The position numbers and the translations under genes are program-made. From Spirochaetales bacterium (GTDB lineage: Bacteria > Spirochaetota > Spirochaetia > SZUA-6 > JAFGRV01): a stretch of DNA of 36,650 bases. The notes beneath the pieces were generated by a model. The model was given only the letters and a program-made list of their open reading frames with translations, did not search any database and was not told where the DNA came from. Location: assembly GCA_016928415.1 (NCBI GenBank), contig JAFGKU010000181.1:1-36650 (forward strand), written 5' to 3'. Below are positions 2,330 to 13,485 of this stretch, one piece after another (positions within the stretch are counted from its first letter, which is position 1; the number at the start of each line of letters is the position of its first letter).

Positions 2330-2671
2330 ATGCCTTTTGTCGGGATATTCTGGTATCTTGAAGACAATCTGCTCTTTACCAAAAAGGAACTTCCATCGCC
2401 TGAAATAGAAACGGAAATCTCCATTGATTCCCGGTATTCGCATTTCGATACCTGGGAGGAAGTGAGGGCGAAAATCCCCGTGCTCCGTGACATCGAAGAA
2501 TACGATTCGGTTCCGCGTGGCCGCATTGTTTTCCTCAAGGCGGAAGGTACCTTCAGGATCTATCACGGCGTTCAATTGCATAAGAAAGTGTTGAAAGCGC
2601 TTGTTGACGAATTTGATTTATCGGGAAGCCCCTGGGAAGCGATGTCCGATGAACACTACCTCCCGTTCTAG
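2330..2671 (+). CDS. Conserved-looking protein of unknown function (113 aa)
   Basis: I do not recognise this small soluble protein. It has no signal peptide or membrane segment and is acidic, with a compact mixed alpha/beta appearance: N-terminal MPFVGIFWYLEDNLLF, central SRYSHFDTWEEVR, and a GRIVFLKAEGTFRIYHG stretch that looks like a beta hairpin. An upstream GGGGA lies at suitable spacing from the ATG. Codon use resembles neighbouring real genes. The GH18 gene diverges upstream and the gene at 2779 lies downstream behind its own promoter, so this gene appears monocistronic. Confidence 0.7.
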   Translation: MPFVGIFWYLEDNLLFTKKELPSPEIETEISIDSRYSHFDTWEEVRAKIPVLRDIEEYDSVPRGRIVFLKAEGTFRIYHGVQLHKKVLKALVDEFDLSGSPWEAMSDEHYLPF

Positions 2672-2717
2672 TGGGAATACGCCTGCTTGTAGTCGATCAA
2701 AACCTCATCCGCTTCTT

Positions 2718-2746
2718 TTGACAAATCAACCGGGATGGACTAAACT
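2718..2746 (+). promoter_or_regulatory. Sigma70-type promoter before the 2779 gene
   Basis: TTGACA at 2718-2723, a 17-nt spacer and TAAACT at 2741-2746. The start would lie near 2753, giving a ~25-nt leader with a GGAGGT ribosome-binding site before the ATG at 2779. No convincing separate promoter was seen before the tRNA locus, so this promoter may also drive it. Confidence 0.65.
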
Positions 2747-2778
2747 TCATTGGAAACAGGAGTATTGGAGGTCACTCA

Positions 2779-3522
2779 ATGGCTGGAAGACAAATTAAAC
2801 TGAACCAGATAATCGCCATAGGCAACGGGGAAAAGAGCCGGGCCAAGAAGGTGCTCACTTCGATATACCAGAAACTCGACAAGGATGCCCTTTTTTCAGG
2901 CATTTCAAAAACATATGAACCGATGGATGAGGAGGGCGAACAGCTTCCCAAGGATGAGAAGTATGTCCAGGTAACGGTAAAGAATGCCATTGCGGAGGTG
3001 ACGGATGCGTTAAAGGACATGTTCAACATAGTCGCCACCCAGGACCTGGCCAATTGCGTAGCCAGGGCCAACATAGTGGTTGACGGCAAAACATTGCTGG
3101 AGGAAGTTCCGGTTACCCATATGCTGTTTCTGGAAAAACAGCTGGAAGACCTCAACACGTTCATCAACACGCTCCCCGTTCTGGACCCGTCGGAAAAATG
3201 GACCTTTAATGCGGAGGCTAACTGCTATATAAGCGAGGAGAAGAAAAGTATCCGGACGAAAAAAGAGCCGCAGGTCATCGTGAAATACGAGGCCACGGAC
3301 AAGCATCCGGCCCAGACCGAGCTTATTTACATCGACAAGCCGGTCGGGTACTGGCACACGGTGAAATTTTCGGGCGCCATCTCAAAGAAAGAGAAAGATG
3401 CCCTTCTGGAAAAGGTGAGAAACCTGCAAAAGGCGGTTAAATTCGCCAGGGAGGAAGCGAATAATACGGAGATCGGCAAGTCGGAATACGGTGACCGGAT
3501 TTTAAAATATTTATTTGAATAA
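2779..3522 (+). CDS. Conserved protein of unknown function, DUF7873-like (247 aa)
   Basis: The protein closely resembles, from memory, a family of unknown function common in actinobacteria (labelled DUF7873). Shared hallmarks are KSRAKKVLT, the SGISKTYEPMDEEGEQLP segment, DGKTLLEEVPVTHMLFLEKQLEDL, LPVLDP, EATDKHPAQ, PVGYWHTVKFSG and KAVKFAREEAN. It is soluble, with no signal peptide or membrane segment, and full length for the family. GGAGGT lies 7 nt before the ATG. The stop is 75 nt upstream of the first permuted tRNA half with no clear promoter between, so the two may be co-transcribed down to the terminator at 3914-3953. Its function is unknown; a link to RNA or tRNA is only suggested by position. 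The patchy phylogenetic spread suggests horizontal transfer. Confidence 0.88.
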   Translation: MAGRQIKLNQIIAIGNGEKSRAKKVLTSIYQKLDKDALFSGISKTYEPMDEEGEQLPKDEKYVQVTVKNAIAEVTDALKDMFNIVATQDLANCVARANIVVDGKTLLEEVPVTHMLFLEKQLEDLNTFINTLPVLDPSEKWTFNAEANCYISEEKKSIRTKKEPQVIVKYEATDKHPAQTELIYIDKPVGYWHTVKFSGAISKKEKDALLEKVRNLQKAVKFAREEANNTEIGKSEYGDRILKYLFE

Positions 3523-3530
3523 AAGAGGAA

Positions 3531-3558
3531 GTCTTTTTGGGGGCAACCCCTCAAAGAC
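3531..3558 (+). other. GNRA-capped hairpin upstream of the permuted tRNA locus
   Basis: GTCTTT (3531-3536) pairs with AAAGAC (3553-3558). Inside, GGGG (3539-3542) pairs with CCCC (3547-3550) around a GCAA tetraloop, with a small internal loop between the helices. No T-run follows, so it is not a classical terminator. It could protect the end of the upstream mRNA or be part of the pre-tRNA 5' flank. Just downstream, CTAAG (3560-3564) can pair with CTTAG (3577-3581). Confidence 0.6.
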
Positions 3559-3595
3559 CCTAAGTTTAAACTCAGTCTTAGACTAAAAATGAATG

Positions 3596-3681
3596 GTGAT
3601 ACGGGTTGAGGGGCCCGTGCAGGTTCGAATCCTGCTCCCCGCAATCGGGTGGGGATGGCGGAACGGCAGACGCGGTATCAC
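3596..3681 (+). tRNA. Circularly permuted tRNA gene 1 (leucine-like, class II)
   Basis: The 3' half comes first: anticodon-stem strand GATAC (3598-3602), a long variable arm (GGG...CCC, 3603-3618), T arm GCAGG-TTCGAAT-CCTGC (3619-3635), acceptor strand TCCCCGC (3636-3642) and A73 (3643). A 5-nt linker (3644-3648) leads to the 5' half: acceptor strand GTGGGGA (3649-3655), T8 G9, D arm GCG-GAACGGCAGA-CGC (3658-3673), G26 and GTATC (3675-3679). The acceptor strands give 7 pairs (one G-U). GTATCAC (3675-3681) is perfectly complementary to GTGATAC (3596-3602). The D arm, variable arm and A73 are leucine-like. CCA is not encoded. The anticodon is uncertain: after the 7-bp helix the 5' half continues GTTCAAAT (3682-3689), holding either UCA or CAA. 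Strict 5-bp numbering would break the U33 rule. The break lies in the anticodon loop. Confidence 0.85.
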
Positions 3682-3758
3682 GTTCAAATCAGGCTTAGAT
3701 TATTCCTCTAATTTAAGCATTCTTGCTGTTGCCGCAATCAAACGGCAGGGCGCGGGCA
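3682..3758 (+). other. Spacer between the two permuted tRNAs, with two hairpins
   Basis: This 77-nt spacer carries the 3' flank of tRNA 1 and the 5' flank of tRNA 2. TTAGA (3695-3699) pairs with TCTAA (3707-3711), and TGCCG (3730-3734) with CGGCA (3743-3747). TTCA (3683-3686) can pair with TGAA upstream of tRNA 1 (3590-3593), continuing the anticodon helix after a small internal loop. GGGCA (3754-3758) can pair with TGCCC downstream of tRNA 2 (3864-3868). The spacer is too short to hold halves of two group I introns. Confidence 0.5.
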
Positions 3759-3859
3759 TAATCGATCGTGGGTTCGAATCCCACCCTTTGCACCGATCGG
3801 GCGGCGGATGAGCCCCATGGGTGCAAAGGTGGCCAAGCGGAAAGGCGGGTTATTACAGA
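3759..3859 (+). tRNA. Circularly permuted tRNA gene 2 (class I, amino acid uncertain)
   Basis: The 3' half is TAATC (3759-3763), a 4-nt variable region GATC, T arm GTGGG-TTCGAAT-CCCAC (3768-3784), acceptor strand CCTTTGC (3785-3791) and A73 (3792). A 30-nt linker (3793-3822) leads to the 5' half: GCAAAGG (3823-3829), T8 G9, D arm GCC-AAGCGGAAA-GGC (3832-3846), G26, GGTTA (3848-3852) and T32 T33. The acceptor strands pair perfectly, and the complement extends 3 bp into the linker (CCTTTGCACC with GGTGCAAAGG). GGTTA pairs with TAATC with one G-U. If the whole loop is in the 5' half it reads TTACAGA (3853-3859), anticodon ACA with purine 37. The D arm and 4-nt variable region resemble Cys/Gln tRNAs, but A73 does not fit Cys, so identity is open. 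CCA is not encoded as such. Confidence 0.83.
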
Positions 3860-3862
3860 TTG

Positions 3863-3898
3863 ATGCCCTGTCTTAAACGGATACCGTGCGGCATGACA
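3863..3898 (+). other. Possible H-type pseudoknot after permuted tRNA 2
   Basis: ATGCC (3863-3867) can pair with GGCAT (3890-3894) while TGTC (3869-3872) pairs with GACA (3895-3898), and ACGG-ATA-CCGT (3877-3887) forms an internal hairpin. The first helix competes with the alternative TGCCC/GGGCA (3754-3758) extension of the tRNA 2 anticodon stem, so the two states may be exclusive. It is short and not verified by covariation. Confidence 0.3.
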
Positions 3899-3913
3899 AT
3901 TCAGCAAGCATCC

Positions 3914-3953
3914 GGCCCCTTCTGGTAGGTTACAACCATTAGGGGCCTTTTTT
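3914..3953 (+). terminator. Intrinsic terminator of the permuted tRNA transcript
   Basis: GGCCCCT (3914-3920) pairs with AGGGGCC (3941-3947), followed by six T (3948-3953). TGGT (3923-3926) can pair with ACCA (3935-3938) inside the loop. It ends 21 bp before the next ATG, which has no visible promoter of its own, so some read-through may feed the radical-SAM genes. Confidence 0.88.
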
Positions 3954-3974
3954 ATCAAAGAGGATGGAAAGAAA

Positions 3975-5219
3975 ATGATAGCACCTTCCCGGCAGACCTT
4001 CTGGACGCGGAAGACAATCAACCTTCTCACGAACAGGGCCAAGGACACCACGTATCATTTTGCCCCGTTTCCCGAATACACTTTTAACAAGAATTACGGC
4101 ATTTACGTTCATGTGCCGTTCTGCCGATCTTTCTGCAGGTTTTGCCCGTATTACAAGGAAACGTATGATAGGGAATCCGAAGGCCGTTATGTGGCTGCCC
4201 TGGAACGGGAGATCGCCATCAGGGATTTTTCGGCACAGCCCAAATGGATGTACTTCGGGGGAGGAACGCCCAACACGCTGAGCCTGGGCAGCCTGGAAAG
4301 GATCCTGTCCGCCTTTTATAAAAAAGTGAGTGTCCGCAATATCGGTATGGAGGTATCCCCTGCGCAGCTGGATGAATCCTATTTGAAGGGGCTGGCCGGA
4401 ATGGGTATCAGGAAGGTGAGCATCGGCATAGAAAGCTTTTCCCGCGAATTGCTGAAGCGGGAAAACCGGTCAGCAATAACGGTGAGGGAAGCGGCGTGGC
4501 TCCTTGAACAGACGGAAAAGGCCGGGCTGTGGGTCAACATTGATATGATGGTGGGTTTTGAGAACCAGAAGGTCTACCATTTCAGGAAGGATATGGATGC
4601 CATCCTGCGTCTGCGCCCCAACCAGCTGACCATTTACCCCGTCATGACGATCCGCGGAACGCAGATCAACAGGCAGACCATGGATGACCTTGTGCAGTTC
4701 AGGATAATCGAACAGGCCGACAGGCGATTGAAGCGGGAAGGTTACAGGAGGAAGACGCTCTGGACGTTCGGCCGGGATTCGGGCCTTTACGATTCCTCCT
4801 ACGATGAACTGGGCAGCGACTACATGGGGTTTGGTCCGAGCGGCATTTCATCCACCCGGGGATGGGTGGCGGTGAACCTTCCTCTTGACGGATACCTGAA
4901 GTCCATGGAGGAGAAAAAGCACAGGGCCTTTGTCAACCGTCATGTCAAGATTTCAGCGCATGAGGCCTGGCGTCGCTTCGGCATGATGCTTTACGAGAGG
5001 AAACTCGGGAAACGCCTCTCCTATCCGCTCTACATGAACCTGTTTATATCGTTCCTGCAAATGTCCGGCTATGCCTTTTTCGGCCGCCTGACACCGAAGG
5101 GCTATTTATACGCGCACCGCCTGACCAAGGCTGTCGTGGAGACCAAGTCGTTTCCTCTGCAGCATCATGGCTGTGTCGCCAACTGGAGTGAATATGAAGA
5201 TTACGCACGGAAAGAATAA
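3975..5219 (+). CDS. HemN/HemW-like radical SAM enzyme
   Basis: This 414-residue protein has the radical-SAM cluster motif CX3CX2C at C50, C54 and C57 (VPFCRSFCRFCPYY), followed by MYFGGGTPN (92-100), typical of the coproporphyrinogen dehydrogenase / HemW group. Further family-like segments are RKVSIGIESF and a Tyr/Gly-rich YMGFGPSGIS stretch near the substrate side. It would bind a 4Fe-4S cluster and S-adenosylmethionine in the cytosol. No other haem genes are nearby, so anaerobic coproporphyrinogen oxidation, haem chaperoning or another radical reaction are all possible. An unusual ~40-residue N-terminal extension precedes the usual YVHVPFC start. A GAGGATGGAAAG ribosome-binding region precedes the ATG. 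The next gene, also radical SAM, starts 10 nt after the stop and probably shares the transcript. Confidence 0.88.
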   Translation: MIAPSRQTFWTRKTINLLTNRAKDTTYHFAPFPEYTFNKNYGIYVHVPFCRSFCRFCPYYKETYDRESEGRYVAALEREIAIRDFSAQPKWMYFGGGTPNTLSLGSLERILSAFYKKVSVRNIGMEVSPAQLDESYLKGLAGMGIRKVSIGIESFSRELLKRENRSAITVREAAWLLEQTEKAGLWVNIDMMVGFENQKVYHFRKDMDAILRLRPNQLTIYPVMTIRGTQINRQTMDDLVQFRIIEQADRRLKREGYRRKTLWTFGRDSGLYDSSYDELGSDYMGFGPSGISSTRGWVAVNLPLDGYLKSMEEKKHRAFVNRHVKISAHEAWRRFGMMLYERKLGKRLSYPLYMNLFISFLQMSGYAFFGRLTPKGYLYAHRLTKAVVETKSFPLQHHGCVANWSEYEDYARKE

Positions 5220-12636: not shown

Positions 12637-13485
12637 TTACGACAGCTTATCATCCAGCCAATTTATCAACAGGTTGGTTTCCTCATAATCATTGAGGAAT
12701 ACCCTTGCCAAATCGGAATGATGCCTGTTTTTGATCACCCTTAATTCAGCCAGGTCTTTTCGTTGTTCCCTGATTTTATTGATAAAGGATTCCGAGCGGT
12801 TGATTTCAACAACCGGGTCCCGGTCACCGTGAATGCACAGAACCGGAATTTTTTCCCTGCCGGTAATATGATGGAGCGGGCTGGCTTCACGGCGGTTCTT
12901 TTCCGTTTGCGCATATTCCCTGTACATTTTTTCATTACCGGGGCTCTGGCTGGGCTTTGAAATATCCAATGCGCCGCTGATTGACAGAAAACCGCGGAAA
13001 AAATCGGAATTTATCCCAAACTTCCTTTGTGCCTTGCTGTTAAAGGCCAATAAACCGGCCAACTCGCCGCCGGCCGACTGTCCGGCCAGGATTGTTTTTT
13101 TGGAGTTTAAACCCAATTCACCGGAAACTGAGAGATACTTTAAATAGGCATTAAACACGTCCTCCATTTGTGCGGGAAAACGGTAATTCGGAACCAGCCT
13201 GTACCCGGGCATAACGGTCGGAAAACCGTATCTGGCGAAAAAATACCCGATGAACCGCATGGCTTCCGGATTGAACAGTCTCCAGGCTCCGCCGTGTATG
13301 AAAAAGACAACACCGGGTTTCCGTATTTCCGGGTCCGGTAAAAAGACCAGTATGTATTGATTTTCCACAGGTCCGTACGGGATCTTTTGTTTGACGATTT
13401 TTTTATCCGCCTGCCAGTTTTCCTTCAGGATGTCGAAAATGACGGCCGGACTCTCCAGTAATTCCTCCAGTGTCCATAAAAGCAT
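12637..13485 (-). CDS. Alpha/beta hydrolase (esterase/lipase, HSL-like)
   Basis: 282 residues. The oxyanion-hole motif HGG is at 64-66 (VVFFIHGGAWR) and the nucleophile elbow GQSAGG at 135-140, with S137. The likely acid is D223 in HGDRDPVVE and the likely base H255 or H256 in KNRHHSD, so the triad looks complete. Family members hydrolyse carboxylic esters. There is no signal peptide, so it is cytosolic. It is the last of three same-strand genes with a zinc-ribbon membrane protein and an acyltransferase-like protein, which suggests an ester or lipid substrate handled jointly. Confidence 0.92.
   Translation of the reverse strand: MLLWTLEELLESPAVIFDILKENWQADKKIVKQKIPYGPVENQYILVFLPDPEIRKPGVVFFIHGGAWRLFNPEAMRFIGYFFARYGFPTVMPGYRLVPNYRFPAQMEDVFNAYLKYLSVSGELGLNSKKTILAGQSAGGELAGLLAFNSKAQRKFGINSDFFRGFLSISGALDISKPSQSPGNEKMYREYAQTEKNRREASPLHHITGREKIPVLCIHGDRDPVVEINRSESFINKIREQRKDLAELRVIKNRHHSDLARVFLNDYEETNLLINWLDDKLS

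Follow-up and report, generated by a model that had tools for sequence, protein, structure and literature searches.

Tandem tRNA halves arranged in reversed order raise the question of whether a bacterial locus encodes tRNAs that have to be rearranged before they can work, or an RNA of another kind. The locus considered here lies on contig JAFGKU010000181.1 of a Spirochaetales bacterium, of which we analyzed a stretch of 36,650 nucleotides (the window; all features below are on its + strand). A first-pass annotation of its letters had described positions 3596-3859 as a tandem pair of circularly permuted tRNA genes. The analysis presented here indicates that this locus probably encodes one structured RNA with two tRNA look-alike arms, and that functional tRNA genes in rearranged form are the less likely reading.

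Two permuted units within a larger structured element

Reading of the DNA letters between 3000 and 4500 confirmed the order and the sequence of the T and D arms given in the first-pass annotation. Two permuted units lie within 3590-3860, each running from a T arm through the 3′ acceptor strand, a linker and the 5′ acceptor strand to a D arm, and both have a seven-pair acceptor stem. The acceptor strands do pair in the permuted order, as had been proposed (GTGGGGA with TCCCCGC, including one G-U, and GCAAAGG with CCTTTGC; 7/7 pairs in each unit), and the anticodon-stem strands GTATCAC/GTGATAC and GGTTA/TAATC pair as well. Unit 1 (3590-3686) contains a T arm (3619-3635), an acceptor stem (3636-3655, formed by 3636-3642 and 3649-3655, with discriminator A3643 and a short linker) and a D arm (3656-3673), carried by a basal, anticodon-type stem that pairs 3590-3602 with 3675-3686 and has its core strands at 3596-3602 and 3675-3681. 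Unit 2 (3759-3852) stands on a basal stem formed by 3759-3763 and 3848-3852 and comprises a T arm (3768-3784), an acceptor stem (3785-3829, formed by 3785-3791 and 3823-3829, with A3792 and a linker) and a D arm (3830-3846).

The element as a whole spans approximately 3531-3947, from a 5′ hairpin through a terminator-like hairpin, and exceeds the region originally noted. It follows a gene for a DUF7873 protein of 247 amino acids (2779-3522; Pfam PF25283, E 3.4e-99), the upstream partner through which related loci were found. The 5′ hairpin (3531-3558), which is present in the fold including the centroid and at whose place a GCGC...GCGC was seen by eye in many actinobacterial loci, precedes a strand with a period-six pattern, ARNYTN, which we call strand X (3561-3595). 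Between the units lies the core motif M1 (3692-3718), a hairpin in the fold, whose pattern recurs in 108/173 loci. Unit 2 is enclosed by two covarying helices, Pb (3730-3893; strands 3730-3736 and 3887-3893) and Pa (3744-3872; strands 3744-3753 and 3863-3872), which flank a conserved internal loop (3737-3879) made of 3737-3741 (AUCAA) and 3873-3879 (UUAAACG). A recurrent YTNAR-type strand, strand Z (3853-3865), was recognized by eye in related loci between the unit 2 stem and Pa. At 3914-3947, sequence and fold indicate a hairpin followed by a T run, which is terminator-like, and two radical SAM genes come next. A functional link to these genes was considered and dropped; in a related locus (L077) the open reading frame after the RNA is of the periplasmic-binding-protein type instead, and the radical SAM genes are consequently taken as chance neighbors.

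The energy fold of 3528-3958, computed with no permuted structure imposed, was much more stable than those of shuffled sequences (z −5.76; 0/100 shuffles as stable), and for this reason the structure of this region is considered to be beyond chance. In the minimum-energy fold, unit 1 forms in full, as do the 5′ hairpin, Pb and the hairpin at M1; of unit 2, it contains the T arm and the acceptor stem. The centroid fold drops the basal stem of unit 1, and for Pa, the unit 2 basal stem and the unit 2 D arm the registers of the energy fold differ from those of the comparative model, the window fold alone favoring another register for Pa. In the window, ARAGORN called 0 tRNA genes and Rfam (release 15) gave 0 matches at the gathering score.

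Distribution of DUF7873 and of the permuted units

A DNA similarity search of 198 genomes, the genome of the window included, gave matches in 22, namely in that genome itself, in two with long matches and in 19 with short matches of 20 to 41 bases. The long matches (L032 and L033) come from another genus of the same family and are 69% identical. Both follow a DUF7873 gene and hold two permuted units each, the acceptor sequences of which differ from those of the window yet still pair. DUF7873 was found in 3/26 genomes of the order (the same three), in 2/392 genomes spread over the phylum, including that of the window, in 73/50,697 phage records, whose names refer to Vibrio, Gordonia, Rhizobium, Klebsiella, Serratia, Arthrobacter, Pseudanabaena, Rhodococcus and Microcoleus, and in 4 plasmid-collection records from Streptomyces and Nonomuraea. 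Relatives are present at at least 570 places in a genome collection with one genome per species and at at least 379 places in viral contigs; the best 80 of each were analyzed. Among the matches listed, bacterial carriers include many genome contigs, above all from Streptomyces and relatives.

In the phage regions that we read, DUF7873 lay among or beside annotated tRNA genes in 5/8, and the stretch after it was free of annotated genes in 6/8, while a small hypothetical open reading frame covers it in Ziko and K479. The predicted structure of DUF7873 is confident (mean pLDDT 90.6, pTM 0.65). Comparison with PDB and viral entries gave nothing at E 0.001 or better, the best viral match, an unnamed one, having E 0.0025. 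Because the fold has no clear relative, RNA binding by DUF7873 does not draw support from homology. Pfam lists the family as of unknown function, and it is named in no paper that we found in the open-licence literature. In one viral contig the DUF7873 frame (L177:2501-3220) has one in-frame stop with table 11, and owing to this stop in the translation L177 was excluded from the DUF7873 protein alignment. Three further observations concern single loci: a planctomycete contig has an EF-Tu-like gene with GTP_EFTU domains upstream of DUF7873 (L079:263-1462), a Nocardia genome has a gene with an RNA ligase domain (PF09414) downstream of the RNA (L090:4347-5117), and ARAGORN labels one tRNA of a viral contig (L224) as tRNA-Pyl.

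The 900 nt after DUF7873 were searched at 173 loci by a script for the succession of T arm, acceptor, linker, acceptor, D arm and basal stem; this set contains near-identical contigs, which were thinned to 125, and four loci with less than 350 nt after the gene. Under strict settings a unit was found downstream of DUF7873 on the sense strand at 144/173 loci, compared with 0/173 on the antisense strand and 1/173 upstream, with two units in 72 loci, one in 72 and none in 29. In the thinned set, 100/125 loci had a unit, 40 of these had two, and both the antisense and the upstream counts were 0. A looser search (score 38), which has a higher false rate (4/173 antisense, 9/173 upstream on the sense strand), gave 100 two-unit loci, 57 with one unit, 15 with none and one with three. 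The arrangement of unit and DUF7873 is carried by spirochaetes, actinobacteria, planctomycetes, chloroflexi and phages. In the apical linker of unit 1 of one locus (L236, after DUF7873), what appears by eye to be a complete ordinary tRNA is present.

Covariation and the conserved core

Acceptor strands were picked by the T and D arms alone, with pairing ignored. They were 7/7 complementary in 111/158 distinct cases, whereas swapped partners reached this in 0.9%, and each of the seven acceptor positions uses several pair types across loci. The anticodon-type basal stem, also chosen blind to pairing, was 5/5 paired in 94/154 cases versus 11.4% for swapped partners. The first-pass annotation had argued from the shared permutation and the intact stems for function over decay, and had named compensatory change in homologous loci as a check. 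The related loci bear this out, in that position and compensatory change agree, the compensatory changes are massive and the stems are conserved.

The helices Pa and Pb were compared within and between loci, for which 89 of the 100 two-unit loci could be anchored and 50 were kept after thinning. In these 50 non-redundant loci, Pa reached a score of at least 14 in 76% within a locus versus 11% between loci, and the values for Pb were 82% and 35%. The survey of conserved strands used 58 loci, kept after thinning from the 93 of the 100 that passed a length filter. RNAalifold, applied to 27 sequences, gave 40 pairs, 32 of them with two-sided changes. Besides Pa and Pb, it recovered an outer helix and, within the unit, the stems of the T arm, the acceptor and the D arm. 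In an alignment of 83 matches, which was fitted to the model, drawn from 70 chosen sources and enriched for good matches, 95.9% of cells were paired and the covariation score was 0.776, compared with 59.9% and 0.190 after shuffling. The 70 sources consist of 66 from the search with model R1 (below) and four model rows (L080, L089, L105 and L114); first units or partial matches account for 14 of the 83 rows.

Covariance scoring, also suggested at first pass, was carried out with a model (R1) built from 26 loci (alignment A6), none of them a spirochaete sequence. In the window R1 matches 3725-3907, next to DUF7873, over its full length (model positions 1-158) with 57.5 bits and E 4e-14; unit 1 scored 24.5 bits. 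Matches at E 0.1 or better were found in 92/100 sources, none of which are model rows, and near-full-length matches at E 2e-8 or better in 79/100, counted by hand; one of the sources (L057) is not a DUF7873 locus. The eight sources with no R1 match were L064, L072, L088, L121, L157, L158, L159 and L215. L064 ends just past the DUF7873 gene, L072 and L157 nevertheless have units found by the script, and L088 and L121 have DUF7873 with neither units nor an R1 match in the stretch analyzed. In a Microcoleus phage the match (L073:5789-5930) does not adjoin DUF7873 but is found about 2 kb further downstream. A search of 61 related genomes with R1 gave matches in 18. The match was full-length in two carriers, the genome of the window (G000) and G002, while under strict filters R1 missed the DUF7873 locus of the third carrier, G004. 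Most of the other genome matches cover the T-to-D part only, a part that a Y RNA or a pair of adjacent ordinary tRNAs could yield as well. One weak full-length match (G020:C137:3906-3986, 27.9 bits) is in a genome with no DUF7873 match.

Strand X fits the ARNYTN pattern with a mean of 14.16 of 16 over 100 loci, compared with 9.38 for shuffled sequences. Its third and sixth positions are free, and the strand is readable as alternating basic and hydrophobic codons. AGA and AAA codons are rare in Streptomyces, and because the GC-rich Streptomyces loci use them in X, as judged by eye, a coding role was considered unlikely. Pairing between X and M1 was also considered and is not claimed, because swapped partners pair about as well (87%) as strands of the same locus (94%). 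Comparison of the loci shows a conserved core, consisting of X, M1, Pa, Pb and the AUCRA/UUAAACG loop, that carries one or two, perhaps three, tRNA-shaped arms. Both the structure and the link with DUF7873 are well shown.

The units differ from decoding tRNAs

As expected of a permuted tRNA gene, the 3′ half precedes the 5′ half in each unit, and the acceptor, T and D stems are intact. An anticodon loop with U33 that is restored on joining the halves was found neither as a rule of the 100 two-unit loci nor in the window fold. With a 5-pair stem assumed, position 33 is T (U) in 21/100 first units and 24/100 second units. In unit 1 of the window, 3590-3602 and 3675-3686 form 12 pairs with one bulged G in the minimum-energy fold, and because this helix is continuous, unit 1 is predicted to lack an anticodon loop. 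In addition, the tRNA body is not kept at unit 1 throughout the 108 loci with M1. In 14 of them, ten Streptomyces-type and four viral, the T-arm motif is absent, and in 13 of these 14 (the exception is L227) a plain hairpin replaces the unit; by eye, the replacement shares its base with unit 1. Because of this replacement, we regard the unit 1 arm as an exchangeable part of a larger RNA. A self-splicing intron or a bulge-helix-bulge was considered and set aside; the flanks were judged by eye, no Rfam intron family matched, and the minimum-energy fold of the window shows an uninterrupted basal stem.

These results revise the initial description of the locus. The permuted order in the tandem pair stands, while the notion of two independent genes does not; because conserved sequence joins the units, they are treated as one element. 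The proposal that the units are permuted elongator tRNA genes is not supported, in view of the inconsistent anticodon loop, the continuous helix, the replaceable unit 1 and the conserved core around both units.

CCA sequences and matches to known RNA models

A CCA directly after the discriminator is present in 46/156 non-redundant units of two-unit loci, against a background of 1.5%. In phages it was found in 20/45 first units and 16/44 second units, and in bacteria in 9/32 first units and 1/27 second units, with 0/8 in spirochaetes. Among viral loci whose ordinary tRNAs mostly have no CCA, 22/54 units still carry it, and no significant link was detected between CCA in the units and the habit of the neighboring ordinary tRNAs (Fisher p 0.28). 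We take the excess of CCA over the background, also in such viral loci, as a sign that CCA may matter inside the RNA; RNase P or a true 3′ end might require it. The discriminator is A in 64/81 first units and T or G in 66/75 second units. A common aminoacylation identity was considered and is not claimed, because the discriminator base and the first acceptor pairs vary. Bacterial units have a median linker length of six bases.

The tmRNA model matched the T arm only in the window region (model positions 346-363 and 347-363). In the genome of the window no tmRNA exceeded the family cut-off; this assembly is 85% complete, and the absence may therefore be a gap. The model of the bacterial Y RNA YrlA (Rfam RF02553) did not match positions 2500-5000 of the window at E up to 10, and 8 further loci gave nothing at the gathering score. 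The Ro60/Rsr (TROVE) protein was not found in the 85% complete genome of the window; it is present in 4/20 carrier records and was not found in the other 16/20, some of the records being plasmids, incomplete genomes or fragments. Although the element shares with YrlA a permuted tRNA-like module on a basal stem, we do not assign it to that family, because of the absence of a YrlA match, the failure to find TROVE in this genome and in 16/20 carrier records, the two heads and the different core. A second, single-headed permuted tRNA-like RNA is present elsewhere in the same genome (G000:C220, approximately 13090-13320; L057:1400-1640, minus strand). It has a sub-threshold YrlA match of 29.9 bits and adjoins a gene for a Band_7/SPFH protein.

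Discussion

The most likely reading of the locus is, in our view, an RNA with several tRNA-mimicking heads that is partnered by DUF7873 and would act as a scaffold offering tRNA mimics to tRNA-recognizing factors. We assign this reading a probability of roughly 0.68; the mechanism is proposed by analogy with YrlA. The locus would give rise to a single structured non-coding RNA, about 400 nt in length, from the same strand as the DUF7873 gene and just after it, and DUF7873 may bind the core of this RNA. Each arm would hang on what would be its anticodon stem in a tRNA, and because a tRNA-shaped arm attached in this way has its T half before its D half, the permuted order would result. The arms are predicted to fold like the elbow and acceptor of a tRNA and might recruit tRNA-recognizing proteins or nucleases, as the YrlA module is reported to do with PNPase. 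A particle with two arms could bind two of these partners at once, or one of them with a firmer grip, and the arms would not be spliced into decoding tRNAs. Transcription, binding by DUF7873 and the identity of the partners are predictions from sequence comparison and from the YrlA analogy. A CCA after the discriminator counts against this reading, because it would be expected of a mature and perhaps charged 3′ end more than of an arm that is closed. The loci with no strict unit or no R1 match, the weak full-length match in a genome with no DUF7873 match, and the X-M1 pairing that does not exceed that of swapped partners also weigh against it.

Debris from recombination in tRNA arrays, to which the resemblance of the pieces to tRNA halves might point, is refuted by the compensatory changes and the conservation described above, and we attach virtually no weight to it. 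Permuted tRNA genes of the algal and archaeal type, which give codon-decoding products once the two halves have been linked within the anticodon loop, probably by way of a circular intermediate, would explain the order of the halves, the intact stems and the CCA encoded in part of the units. They are very improbable here in view of the scarcity of T33, the continuous basal helix of the window's minimum-energy fold, the loci in which unit 1 is without its T-arm motif, the conserved core that surrounds the units, and the 44 matches to ordinary tRNAs in an incomplete genome. Membership in the Ro60 (Rsr) Y RNA family, with Ro60 as the partner and a particle that steers PNPase, appears quite doubtful. 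The YrlA consensus has the same permuted T-acceptor-D order and some carrier records do encode TROVE; on the other hand, the YrlA model does not match, the neighbor is DUF7873, there are two heads, and TROVE was not found in this genome or in most carrier records, although some records are partial and a phage could use the Ro60 of its host.

Three proposals that give the heads another task are unlikely to a similar degree. A two-headed tmRNA-like RNA, with heads cut by RNase P, ending in CCA and aminoacylated, might act on the ribosome or in amino-acid transfer. The excess of CCA, also in viral loci with mostly CCA-less ordinary tRNAs, and the EF-Tu-like gene upstream in one planctomycete favor this proposal, while the near absence of CCA from bacterial second units, the short bacterial linkers, the lack of a common charging identity, the restriction of the tmRNA match to the T arm, and the fact that no tag reading frame was identified make it improbable. 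Little more can be said for a bolder version, a new class of ribonucleoprotein in several phyla and large phages, in which DUF7873 would hold an RNA with two or more RNase P-cut, CCA-ended tRNA heads and thus present charged or protein-bound mimics side by side, like a double-headed tmRNA. The arms might also serve as decoys; with no anticodon loop that can be cleaved, they would soak up nucleases that attack tRNAs, or other defense proteins that bind them. The position of DUF7873 among or beside tRNA genes in most of the phage regions read is in line with this, as is a similar role, that of a competitive inhibitor, suggested for YrlA by the authors of PMC7790460. The many bacterial genome contigs with DUF7873 and a conserved core that a decoy does not need speak against it, and we consider a decoy function an outside chance.

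The few natural tRNA mimics on record are extended here by an apparently undescribed RNA family, which has two heads where the others have one. In the titles and abstract openings listed from the open-licence literature on permuted tRNA, tRNA-like and Y RNA, we found no description of such an element. The new part is the RNA beside DUF7873, with the neighboring protein as its likely partner, and DUF7873 gains a testable role as a candidate RNA-binding protein. The pair looks like an unstudied RNA-protein machine of several bacterial groups and phages, and tractable hosts exist in Streptomyces and actinophages. It also offers a reason for apparent permuted tRNA genes in bacteria that does not imply tRNA splicing there.

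Comparison with known systems

Permuted two-piece tmRNA has adjacent acceptor strands with a short linker and a tRNA-like head on a larger RNA, and the element described here resembles it in these respects. It differs in having two heads and anticodon-type stems, and in a tmRNA model match that is limited to the T arm. Permuted two-piece tmRNA is described in PMC3978253, as are the permuted tRNA genes of algae and Thermofilum pendens, in which the gene order of the halves is the same as here. Compared with the latter, the present units follow no anticodon-loop rule, unit 1 is replaceable, the units are embedded in a conserved larger RNA, and the flanks, judged by eye, give no evidence of splice sites.

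Among known systems, YrlA comes closest with its tRNA-like module. The YrlA consensus (RF02553, positions 23-86) has the same permuted order of T arm, acceptor stem closed by a loop and D arm, set on a stem, and YrlA is likewise a non-coding RNA encoded near the gene for an RNA-binding protein. The primary papers on YrlA are reportedly those of Chen 2014 and Wang 2018. According to PMC8394870, the basal stem of YrlA binds Rsr, and its tRNA-like domain, which DusA and TruB modify, binds PNPase; PMC7790460 notes this domain and suggests possible inhibition of the anticodon nuclease. The present RNA usually has two heads, a different core and DUF7873 instead of TROVE as its neighbor, and it resembles YrlA in the way in which it probably works.
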